A stretch of DNA of 64,000 nt, taken from contig NZ_AP023179.1 of assembly GCF_013426915.1 (NCBI RefSeq), positions 3,596,001 through 3,660,000 of the forward strand. The letters run 5' to 3'. This document shows positions 27,418 to 49,865 of this stretch, piece by piece. The notes beneath the pieces are model-generated. The model ran no database searches and had not been told where the DNA came from. It saw nothing but the letters and a program-made list of their open reading frames with translations. The position numbers and the translations under genes were made by a program. Source of the DNA: Paraburkholderia sp. PGU19 (GTDB lineage Bacteria > Pseudomonadota > Gammaproteobacteria > Burkholderiales > Burkholderiaceae). How positions within the stretch are numbered: position 1 is the first letter of the stretch; the number at the start of each line of letters is the position of its first letter.

Positions 27418-29391
27418 TTACTGCAACGGCTGGATATAACCCAGACGCGCCTTCAGCGATTGCGGACGGCCTTCGAACAACGCTGCATAGTAGACCGTGT
27501 TGGACAGCACGTTCTTCACGTAGTCACGCGTTTCCTGGAACGGAATGGCTTCCGCGAAAATCGCGCCTTCGACACCGCGCGGCAACGTTGAGCGCCAGTT
27601 GCGCGGACGGCCCGGACCTGCGTTGTAACCTGCCGTGGCGAGCACGGCGGACCCGTCGAACTCATTGTAGATCATCGACAGATAGTTCGTGCCGAGCAGG
27701 ATATTGGTGTTGATGTCGTTCATCTGCGCGCGCGAAATCGTGCCGAGACCGATCTTCTTCGCCACCAGTTGCGCGGTGCCCGGCATCAGCTGCATCAGGC
27801 CGCTCGCGCCGACTTCCGAGCGTGCGTTCATGATGAAGCGCGACTCCTGACGGATCAGGCCATACGCCCATTCGACGTCGAGCCCGTTCGACTGCGCGTC
27901 GCGCTCGACGATATCGCGGAACGGCGACAGGTAGCGCAGCGAAAAGTCATGCTCGGTCTTTGTACGATCGGCCGTGTTCACGGCGCGGTCATACAGTTCG
28001 ATACGGCGCGCGTATTCGGCGGTGGCGATCAGCTGGCGGTCCGTCATGCTGCGCAGCGGCCAGTTCCATTCGCGGTTGCCTTCCAGACGCAGGTTCAGCT
28101 GATAGAACTTCTGCGCAAGCGCAAAGCCCGGCGTGTTACCCGCCTGCTCGACTTCGGCGTCCGTGACCGTGGTCTTCGGCGGCACGACGATCTTCTGGCC
28201 GAGTTCTTCCGCGGCAAGCTGGCCGTAGAAATTGAACTGCTGCGAGATCGATTCGAACTCCTGGTTGGCCGTGACGACGTCGCCCGCCTGTTTCAAGGCG
28301 CGCGCATGCCAGTAGACCCACGTGGGCTGGCTGCGCAGCGCAGGCGGCATCTGTTCGACCGACCAGCGCACCATCGTCCAGTCGCCGGCGAGCAGTGCGA
28401 GGCGCGTGCGCCATTCGTATGCGGGATTCGACAGCGGCGCATTCGCCGACAGCCGATACCAGTCGACGGCGCCCGGCATCTGCTTGGCGGCCGCCTGATA
28501 GGCGATCGTGCCCCAGCCGATGGCGCGCTCGGGCGAAGTCAGCGACGGCGCGACGGAACCGAAGGTCGCGGCGGCCATGGCGGGATCGTTGCGGGCCATG
28601 CGTGTGATCGCGAGCAGCGCGAGCTGATGCGATTGCGGATCGGCGCCGACGCCGCGCGCGAGCAGGAGCGGCGGCGTGGTCGCGGCCTGGTCGAACAGCG
28701 TCGGATCGGGACGGTTGTTGCCGAGCGCATCGACGAGCTTGGCGCCCGTGCTGGTCTGGTTCTGTTCGTACGCGAGACGGATCTGCTGCCAGACGTCGTC
28801 GGTGGTGAACTGCTGGTTGATTGCCAGCGACGTAATCAGATCGACACAGCCGTCGCCATAGTTGCGCGGATCGACGAGCAGCGCGCGCGCCGGTTCGACC
28901 ACATTCTCGCCTTTCGCCGCGCGCGATTCGAGCGCGTAGCACTTCACCTGCGTGTCGTCGTTCAGCACGAAGCGCGCGTATTGCTCGTCGAAGTTCTTCC
29001 AGTCATGACGTGCGCCGAGCACGACGAGGTAGTCGTTGCGCAAGCGGTCGGCGATGGCCTGGCCGTCGTAGCGTTGCAGGAACGACAGCACGGGTGCATC
29101 GGGCGCGTCGATGCGCGGATGGCCCGAGCCATCGAACAACTGCGGCTTTAGCTGGAAATATTCCAGATACGACGGCGCCGGGTAATCCGGGATCATCGCC
29201 GCGAGCTGCGCGGCGCGGCCAGCGTCGTTATTGCGCGCTGCCTCGCGCAATTGCACGAAAGTCTGGTCGTCGTTGGTGAGTTGGGAAAGCGGGATCGGCT
29301 TGACGGCGGAGGCCGTGCTGCACGCGACGAGTGCCGCCGCGGCGAGCGCCAGACTGGCCGCGCGATATACTCGGAAGAGGCGTTTGGACAT
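27418..29391 (-). CDS. slt: Soluble lytic murein transglycosylase (lipoprotein)
   Basis: Slt cleaves peptidoglycan between MurNAc and GlcNAc, producing 1,6-anhydroMurNAc. The product has 657 residues. The N-terminus has a signal with lipobox LVAC near residue 20, so it is probably lipid-anchored in the periplasm. The long helical U/L region spans about 30-470. The lytic domain follows with the catalytic Glu in YGLIRQESRF, then SEVGASGLMQLMPGTA and ATAGYNAGPGRPRNW. ATG at 29391 was chosen for the signal peptide. It leads a minus-strand run with the NDUFA9-like, GST and cca genes. Confidence 0.93.
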   Translation of the reverse strand: MSKRLFRVYRAASLALAAAALVACSTASAVKPIPLSQLTNDDQTFVQLREAARNNDAGRAAQLAAMIPDYPAPSYLEYFQLKPQLFDGSGHPRIDAPDAPVLSFLQRYDGQAIADRLRNDYLVVLGARHDWKNFDEQYARFVLNDDTQVKCYALESRAAKGENVVEPARALLVDPRNYGDGCVDLITSLAINQQFTTDDVWQQIRLAYEQNQTSTGAKLVDALGNNRPDPTLFDQAATTPPLLLARGVGADPQSHQLALLAITRMARNDPAMAAATFGSVAPSLTSPERAIGWGTIAYQAAAKQMPGAVDWYRLSANAPLSNPAYEWRTRLALLAGDWTMVRWSVEQMPPALRSQPTWVYWHARALKQAGDVVTANQEFESISQQFNFYGQLAAEELGQKIVVPPKTTVTDAEVEQAGNTPGFALAQKFYQLNLRLEGNREWNWPLRSMTDRQLIATAEYARRIELYDRAVNTADRTKTEHDFSLRYLSPFRDIVERDAQSNGLDVEWAYGLIRQESRFIMNARSEVGASGLMQLMPGTAQLVAKKIGLGTISRAQMNDINTNILLGTNYLSMIYNEFDGSAVLATAGYNAGPGRPRNWRSTLPRGVEGAIFAEAIPFQETRDYVKNVLSNTVYYAALFEGRPQSLKARLGYIQPLQ

Positions 29392-29422
29392 CGTTATTTC
29401 TAGAGCGTTTCTGGAGCGCGAA

Positions 29423-30031
29423 TTGAACTCAAGCATAGCATGCAACCCCACCGCGAAATCGAAAAAGGAACTGCGTGCAACGCTGCTGGAAGCACGTCTG
29501 CATGCGGCTCTCGATGCGGCGGGCAATGATGCCCTGAGGCGTCGGGTGCTCGATGTGTTAACGGTTTATTCGCCTGTAAGTGTAGGGTTGTACTGGCCAT
29601 TGTCAGGAGAGTTCGACATTCGGTCAGTGATTGCCGTTTGGCTCGCTGGCGATAGCGCGCGGCGCGCGAGTTTGCCTGTGATTACTGGGCGTGATCGGCC
29701 GCTGGAATTTCATGTCTGGACGCCTGATATGCCGATGCAGGTCGGGGCTCATCGGATTCACGAACCGACTTCAGGCGAAGTGATTACGCCTGATTTGCTG
29801 TTTGTGCCGTGTGTCGGGTTTGATGTGGATGGGTATCGGCTTGGGTATGGTGGTGGGTACTACGACCGCACGCTGGCCGGTTTTCGCGCGGCGGGGAAGG
29901 TGCCGGTGACCGTCGGTGTCGCGTACGACGTGTGCCGGACTGGCACGATGCAGCGGGAAGCGCATGATATTCCGCTGGATGTTGTCGTTACTGAGGGTTC
30001 TTGTTATCCGGAAGGGAAGCTGGGTTTGTAG
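29423..30031 (+). CDS. 5-formyltetrahydrofolate cyclo-ligase
   Basis: The enzyme converts 5-formyl-THF to 5,10-methenyl-THF with ATP. The product has 202 residues. Visible motifs are KSKKELRATLLEARL at the N-terminus, VGLYWPLSGEFD, and the signature FDVDGYRLGYGGGYYDR near residues 133-149. No ATG is in frame; TTG at 29423 has GGAG six bases upstream and gives a normal length. Codons in the second half are unusually T-rich for this genome (for example GGT, TTT and GTG runs). It is divergent from slt with a 31-bp gap and is followed by the large palindromic repeat. Confidence 0.92.
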   Translation: MNSSIACNPTAKSKKELRATLLEARLHAALDAAGNDALRRRVLDVLTVYSPVSVGLYWPLSGEFDIRSVIAVWLAGDSARRASLPVITGRDRPLEFHVWTPDMPMQVGAHRIHEPTSGEVITPDLLFVPCVGFDVDGYRLGYGGGYYDRTLAGFRAAGKVPVTVGVAYDVCRTGTMQREAHDIPLDVVVTEGSCYPEGKLGL

Positions 30032-30221
30032 TCGTGGTTTTTTGCTGGTCGCGGTGGCGTTCGTGTAGCGCCTTTGCGGCGCGGGTGGTTTGGTTTTTTT
30101 GCCTTTGCGCTGGCATTTGGGGGGCGGTGTTTGCTGCGCAAGCGGTTTGGTTTGCTTGTTTTTGCGCTGGCATCCGCGATTTGTTAGCGTGCTTCAGGCG
30201 TCGCCCCTGTGCGGGGCGGCA

Positions 30222-30255
30222 CCTACTTTTCTTTGCCGCCGCAAAGAAAAGTAGG
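30222..30255. repeat. 15-bp-stem hairpin in left arm of copy A
   Basis: CCTACTTTTCTTTGC, loop CGCC, GCAAAGAAAAGTAGG. The same stem recurs at 30735-30768, 46140-46173 and 46652-46685. Confidence 0.85.
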
Positions 30256-30734
30256 CAAAAGAAAGCGGATAACACCGCTAATTCTTGTTCTCGCCTGAGG
30301 GCTCCCAACGGGTCTTATGCTTCACACGGCAACATCTCTGTTGGCGCTCGTTGCCAACGCGTTGAATGACCGCCTCACCCACTTCAAACACCCGAACAAG
30401 AGCTAGCGTCAGCGAATGGTATGTGCCGCCCAGGTGGCAAACTGTGTGTAGGTTGTCGCGTCGTATAGGGTAGCGCTCCTACAGGGTGGAACGCGTGCGC
30501 TATCGGTCCGGAGTGAGGCGTGTGGACCACTTGGGCCGACACACAGTTTGCCACCTGGGCGGCGGTGGACTATCTGGCACGGCATGATGCAGCGCGGGTG
30601 CGTGAAGCGGGTGAGGCGCACTGCGAGAGTGCTGGCAACTAACATCAGTCATGTGATTGCCGTGTGAAGCGCGGGACCGGTTGGGAGCCCTCAGGCAACA
30701 ACATAGAACTGGCGGTGTGAGCCGCTTTCTTTTG

Positions 30735-30768
30735 CCTACTTTTCTTTGCGGCGGCAAAGAAAAGTAGG
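30735..30768. repeat. 15-bp-stem hairpin in right arm of copy A
   Basis: Same 15-bp stem as at 30222, with loop GGCG, in mirrored context. Confidence 0.85.
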
Positions 30769-30925
30769 TGCCACCCCGCACAGGGGCGACGCGTGAATGG
30801 CAAACACCGTAGCGCGGATGCCAGCGCAAAGCCCAAAACACCACACCGGTTGCACAGCAAACACCGCCCTCGGATGCCAGCGACAACGCAAAAAAACCCA
30901 ACCCGTCGGCAGACAACAAAAACCC

Positions 30926-31438
30926 CTACAACGATGCAGCCGCCCGCGCCGCGGTGTCATAAAGCCCGGAAGCATTCCGCATCAGTTGCGCTGCCTCCCC
31001 AATCTGCTCATTGGTGAGCCCACTTTCCTTAAGCGTTGCGATCAGACAGTTCTCGCGAACCTCGCGATACTTCATACACAGATCACGCCCCGCCTGCGTA
31101 GCAGAAAAAAACACTTCCTTGCCGGTCTTTTCGCTGTTTACATACCCTCTAGCTACGAGCTTCTTGAGCGCGTAAGTCGCAACATGCGTGTCCTCGATAT
31201 TCAGCACGAAGCAGATATCGGCAATCTTCTTGCGCCGCTCGCGGTGGCTCACATGGTGCAGCAGCGAAACTTCGATCGCCGTCATGTCCTTGTCGCCCGC
31301 CGCCGCCATGCAACGGACCATCCATCGATTGAACGCATTGCTCGCCATGATCAGTCCGTACTCGAGTTCGGATAACTCCGCACTAAATTCAGACACAAGA
31401 TGTTCCGATGAGACGATTTTGGTCGGATGACGCGCCAT
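30926..31438 (-). CDS. MarR-type winged-helix regulator, probably of the 5-oxoproline genes
   Basis: The 170-residue protein has a MarR-like winged helix: MTAIEVSLLHHVSHRERRKK (about residues 51-70), DICFVLNIEDTHVATYALKKL as recognition region, and the wing GYVNSEKTGKEVFFSATQAG. It probably acts as a dimeric repressor or activator binding palindromic DNA. It is divergent from pxpB with 191 bp between the starts, where a 19-bp near-palindrome lies. That arrangement suggests control of the pxp operon. It ends next to palindromic repeat copy A. Confidence 0.82.
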   Translation of the reverse strand: MARHPTKIVSSEHLVSEFSAELSELEYGLIMASNAFNRWMVRCMAAAGDKDMTAIEVSLLHHVSHRERRKKIADICFVLNIEDTHVATYALKKLVARGYVNSEKTGKEVFFSATQAGRDLCMKYREVRENCLIATLKESGLTNEQIGEAAQLMRNASGLYDTAARAAASL

Positions 31439-45904: not shown

Positions 45905-46139
45905 GGCGTTCTCCGCAAGGCAGTTGGGGTCGAGTGCCTTTGGATCATAGTCAGCCAATAATCAGATTCAATATGGGTTTTCACTCCGCTTCGCTTCGTG
46001 GCAGGTTTGGTTTGCCTGCCTTTGTTCTGGCATCCGGAGGATGGTGTTTGCTGCGCAAGCCGTTTTGGGTTGGTTGACTTTTCGCTGGCATCCGCGTTTC
46101 GTTAGCGTGCTTCAAGCGTCGCCCCTGTGCGGGGCGGCA

Positions 46140-46173
46140 CCTACTTTTCTTTGCCGCCGCAAAGAAAAGTAGG
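46140..46173. repeat. 15-bp-stem hairpin in left arm of copy B
   Basis: Same stem and loop as 30222-30255. Confidence 0.85.
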
Positions 46174-46651
46174 CAAAAGAAAGCGGCTAACACCGCCAAC
46201 TCTTGTATTTGCCTGAGGGCCCCCAACCGGTCCTACACTTCACACGGCAACGTCCTCGTTCGCGTTCGTTGCCAACGCTTCGAATGAACGCCTCACCCAC
46301 TTCAAATACCTGCGTACAAGCTAGCGGCAGCGAACGGTTTCTGCCGCCCAGGTGGCAAACTGTGTGTAGGTTGTCGCGTCGTATAGCTTGGCGCTCTAAC
46401 ACGGTGGAACGCGTGCGCTATCGGTCCGAAGTGAGGCATGCGGAGCACTTGGGCCTACACACAGTTTGCCACCTGGGCGGCGGCGGAATATTCGGTGCGG
46501 CATGCCGCAACGCGGGTGCGTGAAGCGGGTGAGGCGCTCATTCAGAGCGTTGGCAACGGACGTGGGTCAGGTGATTGCCGTGTGAAGTGAGGGACCGGTT
46601 GGGGGCCCTCAGGCAAACACAAGAACTGGCGGTGTTAGCCGCTTTCTTTTG

Positions 46652-46685
46652 CCTACTTTTCTTTGCGGCGGCAAAGAAAAGTAGG
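46652..46685. repeat. 15-bp-stem hairpin in right arm of copy B
   Basis: Same stem as 30735-30768, with loop GGCG. Confidence 0.85.
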
Positions 46686-46854
46686 TGCCGCCCCGCACAG
46701 GGGCGACGCGTGAAGCTAGATAGCAACTCGCGGATGCTAGCGCAAAGTCAAACAACCCAAAATGGCTTGCACAGCAAACACCGCCCCCCCGGATGCCAGC
46801 GAAAAGTCAAACAACCCAAAACGGCTTGCGCAGCAAACACCGCCGCAGACGAAC

Positions 46855-49711: not shown

Positions 49712-49746
49712 CACGCCCTCCTTTCTAAAAATGACTAGAAATTTGA

Positions 49747-49856
49747 CGTGAGCGCCGTTCGATGCGGTTGGTTTGTAGGCGCGGCGCGCGTCCAATCCTT
49801 CCGATTGAAAGCCTTCGAGCCTGGCGGGTCGAACCCGTCGCAACGCTCCTCGAAGA
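49747..49856 (-). promoter_or_regulatory. S-adenosylhomocysteine (SAH) riboswitch
   Basis: Read on the minus strand, the leader contains TCGAGGAGCGTTGCGACGG, then CGCCAGGCTCGA and, after a variable arm, AACGGCGCTCACG. These are the conserved blocks of the SAH riboswitch aptamer: the CGAG/CTCG stem, the GAGCG/CGCTC pseudoknot and the CCAGG internal segment. SAH binding is known to turn expression on. Downstream, TTTCTA/TAGAAA (49722-49741) can form a small hairpin overlapping the ribosome-binding site, so control may act on translation. Confidence 0.92.
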
Positions 49857-49865
49857 CGAGTGGCG

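Follow-up and report, generated by a model that had tools for sequence, protein, structure and literature searches.

The window analysed here, 64,000 nucleotides of the genome of Paraburkholderia sp. PGU19 (contig NZ_AP023179.1, positions 3,596,001 to 3,660,000), holds at 30032-30925 an intergenic palindrome, copy A, which is bounded by the stop codons of two converging genes (at 30031 and 30926; Table 1). A sequence-only reading had described a palindrome of about 0.8 kb between these genes, and the arm pairs as well as the flanking stop codons were found. The entire gap probably belongs to the element, since in other copies the outer units often start right after the stop codon. The strongest arm pair, I1 (30193-30285 with 30705-30797), spans 93 nt at 94% and is accompanied by the further inner pairs I3 (47 nt, 85%), I4 (45 nt, 71%) and I6 (28 nt, 96%), the last of which adjoins the 83-nt centre, and by the outer pairs I2 (57 nt, 84%) and I5 (37 nt, 81%). 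Each arm carries the features that had been read in it, namely a perfect 15-bp hairpin (I9, 30222-30255; I10, 30735-30768), a shared block, GTCGCCCC-TGTGC-GGGG, and the core beside the centre. The picture of two arms of about 400 bp mirrored around an asymmetric centre stands for the arms and for the centre but not for a continuous symmetry, which is blockwise: mirrored blocks alternate with non-complementary linkers of equal length.

Table 1. Coordinates of the element copies in the window, of the parts of copy A and of its neighbouring genes
Feature	Position	Strand	Remarks
5-formyltetrahydrofolate cyclo-ligase (neighbour)	29231..30031	+	listed ORF; start of the gene caller at 29384
Copy A, whole element (probable extent)	30032..30925	.	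palindromic core 30193-30797 plus outer repeat units
Left outer units	30073..30178	+	tandem 57-bp repeat ending in GCGCTGGCATCC (D1, I2, I5)
Left GC hairpin P1	30200..30220	.	GCCCC-TGTGC-GGGGC; compensatory changes between species (helix 1, alignment A1)
Left module	30222..30269	-	on the minus strand: tag 30265-30269, T/C linker 30256-30264, 15-bp hairpin 30222-30255
Left 28-nt core	30425..30452	+	near invariant in 64 copies
Asymmetric 83-nt centre	30453..30535	+	orientation varies among copies, 42 versus 22
Right 28-nt core	30536..30563	-	
Right module	30721..30768	+	tag GCCGC 30721-30725, linker TTTCTTTTG 30726-30734, hairpin strands 30735-30749 and 30754-30768
Right GC hairpin P1	30770..30790	.	
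Right outer units	30813..30906	-	D3, I2, I5
Winged-helix/MarR-like regulator (neighbour)	30926..31438	-	converges on copy A
Copy B of the element	45989..46845	.	composite of repeat families; hairpins 46140-46173 and 46652-46685

Copies in the genome, the genus and beyond

The half-hairpin word, searched with up to 2 mismatches, has 8 occurrences in the window, where dinucleotide shuffles predict 0.04; all 8 are exact and lie in copies A and B. In copy B, the right outer unit is duplicated in tandem (46731-46844, 59-bp step, 93% alike). Further along, at 49743-49857 on the minus strand, lies an ordinary SAH riboswitch aptamer (RF01057, 55.2 bits).

In the whole 11.25-Mb genome, 251 of the 34-nt hairpins are found at up to 3 mismatches and a control pattern is found 0 times. 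Among the hairpin places listed, most form pairs about 513 bp apart, so the genome would hold about 120 elements. Named loci that share the hairpin or the element are for the most part from Paraburkholderia. The sequence-only reading had advised a search for more copies in Burkholderiales genomes and had thought that similar hairpin words may occur in Burkholderia relatives; further copies were found in such relatives. At up to 1 mismatch, the hairpin is present in 19 of the 59 genomes searched, our own included, with 1 to 342 copies each; all 19 are among the 35 genomes of the genus, and all 24 genomes of other genera of the order lack it. As it is absent from 16 of the 35 and has few copies in most of the others, the hairpin can have no essential role in the host. 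Palindromes with like arm ends but differing interiors are found in other named genomes, where 16 of the 80 loci could be parsed as pairs (the core word being present in 2 of the 16), and also in Caballeronia (L368). A covariance model of the arm, R1, describes nested helices only and has rough E-values. Of 300 genomes sampled in the order, it matches 101 (54 of the 134 sampled genera), and of 369 in the class, 77 (62 of 272 genera); in the latter set, the hairpin pattern at 2 mismatches finds 2 genomes. In the phylum the model matches 37 of 299 genomes: 24 belong to the class, and the other 13, with weak E-values, all come from a single family of another class. A phage or viral origin was considered and rejected, as 605 bases gave no blastn match in phages, and neither the hairpin pattern nor the 22-nt core word had an exact match in viral_contigs, at the sensitivities used.

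A pairing and mirror code in each arm

The sequence-only reading had imagined that the palindrome, once transcribed, would fold into one very long RNA stem, and had proposed to look for covariation between the arms. In the 64 copies out of 71 that entered the core alignment (IS-bearing or shortened ones being excluded), the inner arms pair with each other no better within a copy (0.7606) than between copies (0.7593), a within-copy value that 1228 of 5000 permutations reach, so a long stem is not what selection keeps. An unoriented version of this comparison (0.768 within, 0.810 between) is misleading because the elements lie in both orientations. That the element is a source of long dsRNA, or a single giant cruciform whose full-length symmetry is maintained, is therefore very improbable: the arms of about 400 bp would suit it, but the inner arms covary no more than chance allows, the linkers are non-complementary and the modest similarity within a copy is limited to the outer 60 nt or so. 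What is conserved lies elsewhere. Among the 64 oriented copies, divergence amounts to 0.2% for the left hairpin with its linker and tag and 0.8% for the right hairpin region, against 1.2-1.4% for the 28-nt cores, 12% for the centre and 15-26% for the asymmetric linkers.

Covariation is indeed present, but in a small module within each arm. This module consists of the GC hairpin followed by a hairpin of 14-15 bp, the loop of which pairs with a tag across a T/C-rich linker; in the right module of copy A, the loop is GGCG. Between species, the stem changes on both sides, and the loop half changes together with the tag behind the linker. Three alignments were used: A1, with 25 of 152 distinct arms; A2, with 70 of 71 picks (98 before thinning); and A3, with 46 of the 70 rows of A2 from many genera, linker-length variants and shifted tags being excluded. 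The complementarity of loop and tag, over 18 distinct loops, was reached in 0 of 5000 shuffles. In A3, 95.7% of the cells are paired, 12 of the 18 pairs are altered on both sides, and 115 cells have changed on both sides against 30.9 in shuffles, a number that 0 of 500 shuffles reach; the further pair types of A3 are not above shuffles (169 of 500). With the two helices in pseudoknotted order, the paired cells and the covariation score were likewise reached in 0 of 500 shuffles, in A1 as in A3.

The linker follows a rule of its own. In A3, it mirrors the pyrimidine strand of the stem at 366 of 368 positions, compared with a maximum of 339 when linkers were shuffled among rows and with 275 in the direct register. 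This is what is expected for U.A-U and C.G-C triples. Among the far loci L370-L439, 43 of 48 parsed modules have linker and stem in mirror order, and the direct order fits 8 modules, all 8 of them symmetric. A second set of modules, from outside the order, gives the mirror in 20 of 23 cases and a loop-tag complement of 4.39 against a shuffle maximum of 3.30. For the far loci, the oriented parser gives 4.73 against a shuffle maximum of 4.10 (48 modules), and 26 modules of far loci with mixed orientations, at 3.46 against a shuffle mean of 3.15 and maximum of 3.69, are not above shuffles. The module parser needs A/G runs in stem and linker and misses variants (8 of 29 loci outside the order were unparsed). 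Comparison of the aligned sequences establishes the pairing and the mirror code, and the module is very probably an H-type pseudoknot with a triple helix, in which the triads themselves (U.A-U, C.G-C) and the placement of the linker in the groove would follow from the code. In several far relatives (L376-L432), a second conserved stretch is observed within the element downstream of the module, with words like GGAACTCGC and CTCAAACAGTCCTCGCCGA.

Triple-helix H-type pseudoknots are known from telomerase RNA and from the SAM-II and preQ1-II riboswitches, where the order is S1a-L1-S2a-S1b-L3-S2b and a U-rich L1 lies along S2. The module shares this order and a U-rich L1 along S2, but its S2 is longer (14-15 bp), 8 triads are predicted and it is repeated many times in the genome.

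The strand on which the module folds can be read from the stem mismatches. In 76 far modules, which are not all independent, the purine-linker strand shows them as C.A in 12 cases, as G.T in 1 and as other mismatches in 11, and this excess of C.A corresponds mostly to G.U wobbles on the pyrimidine strand. The Paraburkholderia set gives 5 C.A, three of them from one misparsed locus (L139), and 0 G.T. A1 runs contrary to this trend: its three one-sided changes (2 in P1 and 1 in the loop-tag helix) read as G.U when the purine-linker strand is taken. The folded strand probably runs outward from the centre of the palindrome. In an A-form helix, the deep groove has room for eight bases of the linker, with one more base to bridge about 5 bp. 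This linker geometry favours RNA over B-form DNA, without amounting to proof; the fold would then act as RNA, but it could also act as single-stranded DNA.

In the Rfam 15 scans made, RF02421 (Bp1_684) was the sole family with a notable score. It overlaps the edge of the module and reaches 43.8 bits in the left arm (30124-30232, minus strand), just under its cut-off of 44, and 27.6 bits in the right arm; mir-784 and COG2908 matched far under their cut-offs. RF02421 is above its cut-off in L367 (B. cepacia, 118.8 bits) and in L372, and no match at an E-value of 0.001 was found in 16 further loci. The family, a Burkholderia sRNA candidate (Bp1_Cand684_SIPHT), lies on the strand proposed here as the folded one and covers the end of the long hairpin, the GC hairpin and the outer unit. 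However, the Rfam model begins within the long hairpin and is devoid of tag, linker, loop pairing and triple helix. The statement that the element has no accepted name thus holds for the element as a whole, but its edge does overlap this named family. Bp1_684 figures in a table of RT-PCR validated sRNA genes and, in the accessible parts of that article, is treated as an sRNA and not as a repeat or palindrome (PMC3521395). Among the listed titles and abstract openings of the freely accessible literature, no description of the repeat was found, and a search by its letters returned no paper.

Gain, loss and invasion of the element

The locus of copy A was surveyed in related genomes: 37 of 39 had a match, 30 loci were examined and both genes were present in 25. 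Where the element is present, the aligned coding ends enclose a gap of 901 bp (our genome) or 798 bp (the relative G001); in the other 23 of these 25 Paraburkholderia loci the gap is 40-186 bp, free of the element, and about 44 bp in the nearest empty relatives. The empty sites that the sequence-only reading had suggested to look for do therefore exist, though the spacers are too diverged for a target-site duplication to be read, and in a comparison for terminal inverted repeats the ends of copy A are degenerate. With more flank, a diverged element is also seen at this locus in G020, in a gap of about 2.25 kb that holds a further insert resembling a transposase (putative, by reading).

Comparison with G001, which is about 93% identical, shows three sites that are long in G001 and short here, and one element (G000 C1 112413) that is missing in G001. 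The short form, of about 100 bp, consists of the outer arms and one GTCGCCCC-GCACA-GGGGC hairpin. This scar structure is what a deletion between CGCCCC direct repeats would leave, and such a deletion may have generated the short forms. There are 29 exact short forms in this genome, and 9 of 39 genus genomes have some; one of these, G021, is without the hairpin (G059 is not in the hairpin count), so insertion into short sites is possible too. Plasmid and chromid records were not informative on the polarity between long and short forms. The annotation of plasmid records tells little, as two of them have one annotated feature each. Directly behind a terminator hairpin and adjoining a short-form scar lies, at L209 (G000:C1:271345-273250), an insert resembling a group II intron with a reverse transcriptase (putative, by reading).

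Four orthologous pairs of elements shared with G001 have identities of 0.879, 0.783, 0.832 and 0.830, and the median identity of the G001 elements to all G000 copies is 0.80-0.85. The orthologue is the best match in 1 of the 4 pairs (0.879, the next being 0.875) and is not in the other three, one of which is inverted. Variable sites less than 20 bp apart are linked with an r2 of 0.13, a value that drops to 0.03 for distances of 20-39 bp and to about 0.02 for longer ones. The copies look like recombinational mosaics, and the genome comparisons establish a repeat family with presence/absence and long/short polymorphism at orthologous sites.

Copy A itself contains no transposase, as the sequence-only reading had stated; its family, variable in copy number and polymorphic at orthologous sites, is a target of several. 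A 356-aa transposase of the IS30 family (NF033563, 292.6 bits for the L049 copy) is present in 10 copies, two of which are split reading frames, with two further weak hits (C5, C3) left out of this count; 9 of the 10 are inside elements and 1 outside. Eight of the 10 sit, in both orientations, at GTAGG|IS|AGGCAAAAG, a single nucleotide at the foot of the hairpin, the ninth lies elsewhere in an element, and a 56% relative is found outside elements. Transposases with DDE_3 and DDE_Tnp_1 domains also lie within elements. By the positions of these insertions, the element is a favoured landing site of an IS30-family element. That the palindrome is itself a MITE derived from such an element and mobilised by its transposase would agree with the 9 of 10 copies inside elements, but we reject this parentage as barely credible: the IS possesses ends of its own and, within the palindrome, seems to have an AGG duplication on its flanks, insertion at one nucleotide in both orientations reflects target choice and not descent, the orthologue of one IS-bearing element is without the IS (G001 508402 versus G000 482506), and other transposases enter the elements too. 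IS30 is known to insert at nearly palindromic hot spots, according to the accessible part of PMC9333248. Here too the IS30-family element picks a hairpin foot, but what it targets is a structured repeat with many copies. In G001, a 379-aa transposase-like gene lies in the hairpin loop of the palindrome at two sites, on opposite strands (L220:4795-5934 and L229:2851-3990).

The REP, BIME and REPIN repeats of Pseudomonas and enterobacteria occur as inverted pairs, and a RAYT (Y1) transposase partner is one of their features. The element resembles them in its many intergenic palindromic copies, its inverted pairs and its use as an IS landing site, the latter being reported for REP-type repeats in the accessible part of PMC1525189; it differs in being much larger and in that its module is no plain hairpin but a pseudoknot that follows a triple-helix code. 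The element might be a REPIN-like mobile repeat, with a module that a transposase supplied in trans would recognise as single-stranded DNA. The inverted pair with its variable interior would be the moving unit, and only folded single-stranded DNA would be mobilised, which would explain why the structure is conserved. The inverted-pair architecture with interiors unlike between species, the lineage-specific amplification (0-342 hairpins per genome), the whole element inserted in the gap of about 44 bp, the weak orientation bias of solo modules and the strand asymmetry of the stem mismatches all speak for it. We nonetheless consider it rather unlikely, as neither a clean target-site duplication nor an autonomous partner was found among the elements seen, the genome has only 3 Y1_Tnp matches, none of them tied to the element, the modules are near invariant while the linkers diverge, and one linker nucleotide bridging about 5 bp suits RNA better than B-form DNA.

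Gene context and a possible RNA 3' boundary

The elements lie mostly downstream of genes. With genes called by a self-trained hexamer model, 40 of 71 elements lie between converging genes, 29 between tandem and 2 between diverging ones; for the 29 short forms the numbers are 16, 12 and 1. The background, unweighted by gap length, is 64 convergent and 62 divergent among 355 neighbouring gene pairs. A terminator-like site within 75 nt of the 3' end is found in 3 of 107 cases beside elements versus 20 of 200 without an element, and in 16 of 76 convergent 3' ends without an element. The word GTCTGCGA occurs within 75 nt of the stop codon in 28 of 107 3' flanks, often after a T-run. In copy A, the region 29900-31100 has 9 terminator-like sites against 2.1 (sd 1.9) in shuffles, two of which are P1 followed by ACCTACTTTT with the tract offset from the hairpin; sigma-70-like promoters number 0 there against 0.5 in shuffles. 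A gene lies no more than 450 bp upstream in 12 of the 13 solo modules found among Paraburkholderia and related loci, and in 10 cases this gene is on the purine-linker strand. In tandem pairs, solo modules lie with the purine-linker strand in 11 cases and against it in 7 in the far set, and in 4 and 2 in the Paraburkholderia set (read from rows). This weak bias counts against a 3'-UTR function, for which a strong one is expected.

The reading that we favour, with moderate confidence, is that of a composite non-coding intergenic repeat made of paired pseudoknot modules, which would serve as an RNA 3' boundary and spread by REP-like amplification. The element would consist of two inverted single-strand modules, a variable interior and outer units beside the stop codons. 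On the outward strand, the order would be tag, T/C linker, stem strand, loop and stem strand; tag and loop would pair into the H-type pseudoknot, with the linker laid in the stem groove as a triple helix and the GC hairpin behind. Such a fold in RNA would block the polymerase or a 3'-5' exonuclease at transcript ends, and the palindrome would act as a two-faced 3' boundary for converging genes. The position of the elements behind stop codons would be tolerated, their number would have grown by REP-like amplification, and gene conversion would keep them uniform. The 3'-boundary role taken by itself is put forward tentatively, and the biological role would lie between an RNA 3' boundary and a mobility signal.

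Eukaryotic and viral ENE triple helices protect RNA 3' ends. We may even be facing a new large class of bacterial triple-helix RNAs in Burkholderiales and gammaproteobacteria that protects or defines RNA 3' ends and whose inverted pairs bound converging genes, a proposal that we regard as doubtful. An unexplained palindrome has in any case become a testable structure with a strict covariation code, seen in 54 of the 134 genera sampled from the order. Should the fold operate in RNA, bacteria would have in it a very common triple helix; should it operate in single-stranded DNA, mobile repeats would have a recognition signal of a new kind. In both cases, an explanation is offered for the IS30-family hot spot, and a clean system is available for the study of palindrome deletion and gene conversion.

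Two minor observations concern copy A. The GC hairpin immediately 5' of the T-rich linker (30711-30726 on the plus strand and 30279-30264 on the minus strand) resembles an intrinsic terminator; since it shares its tag with the pseudoknot, both could be alternative folds. The listed ORFs that run through the hairpin at 29988-30919 (FFAAAKKS-type) are probably spurious and may pollute annotations.
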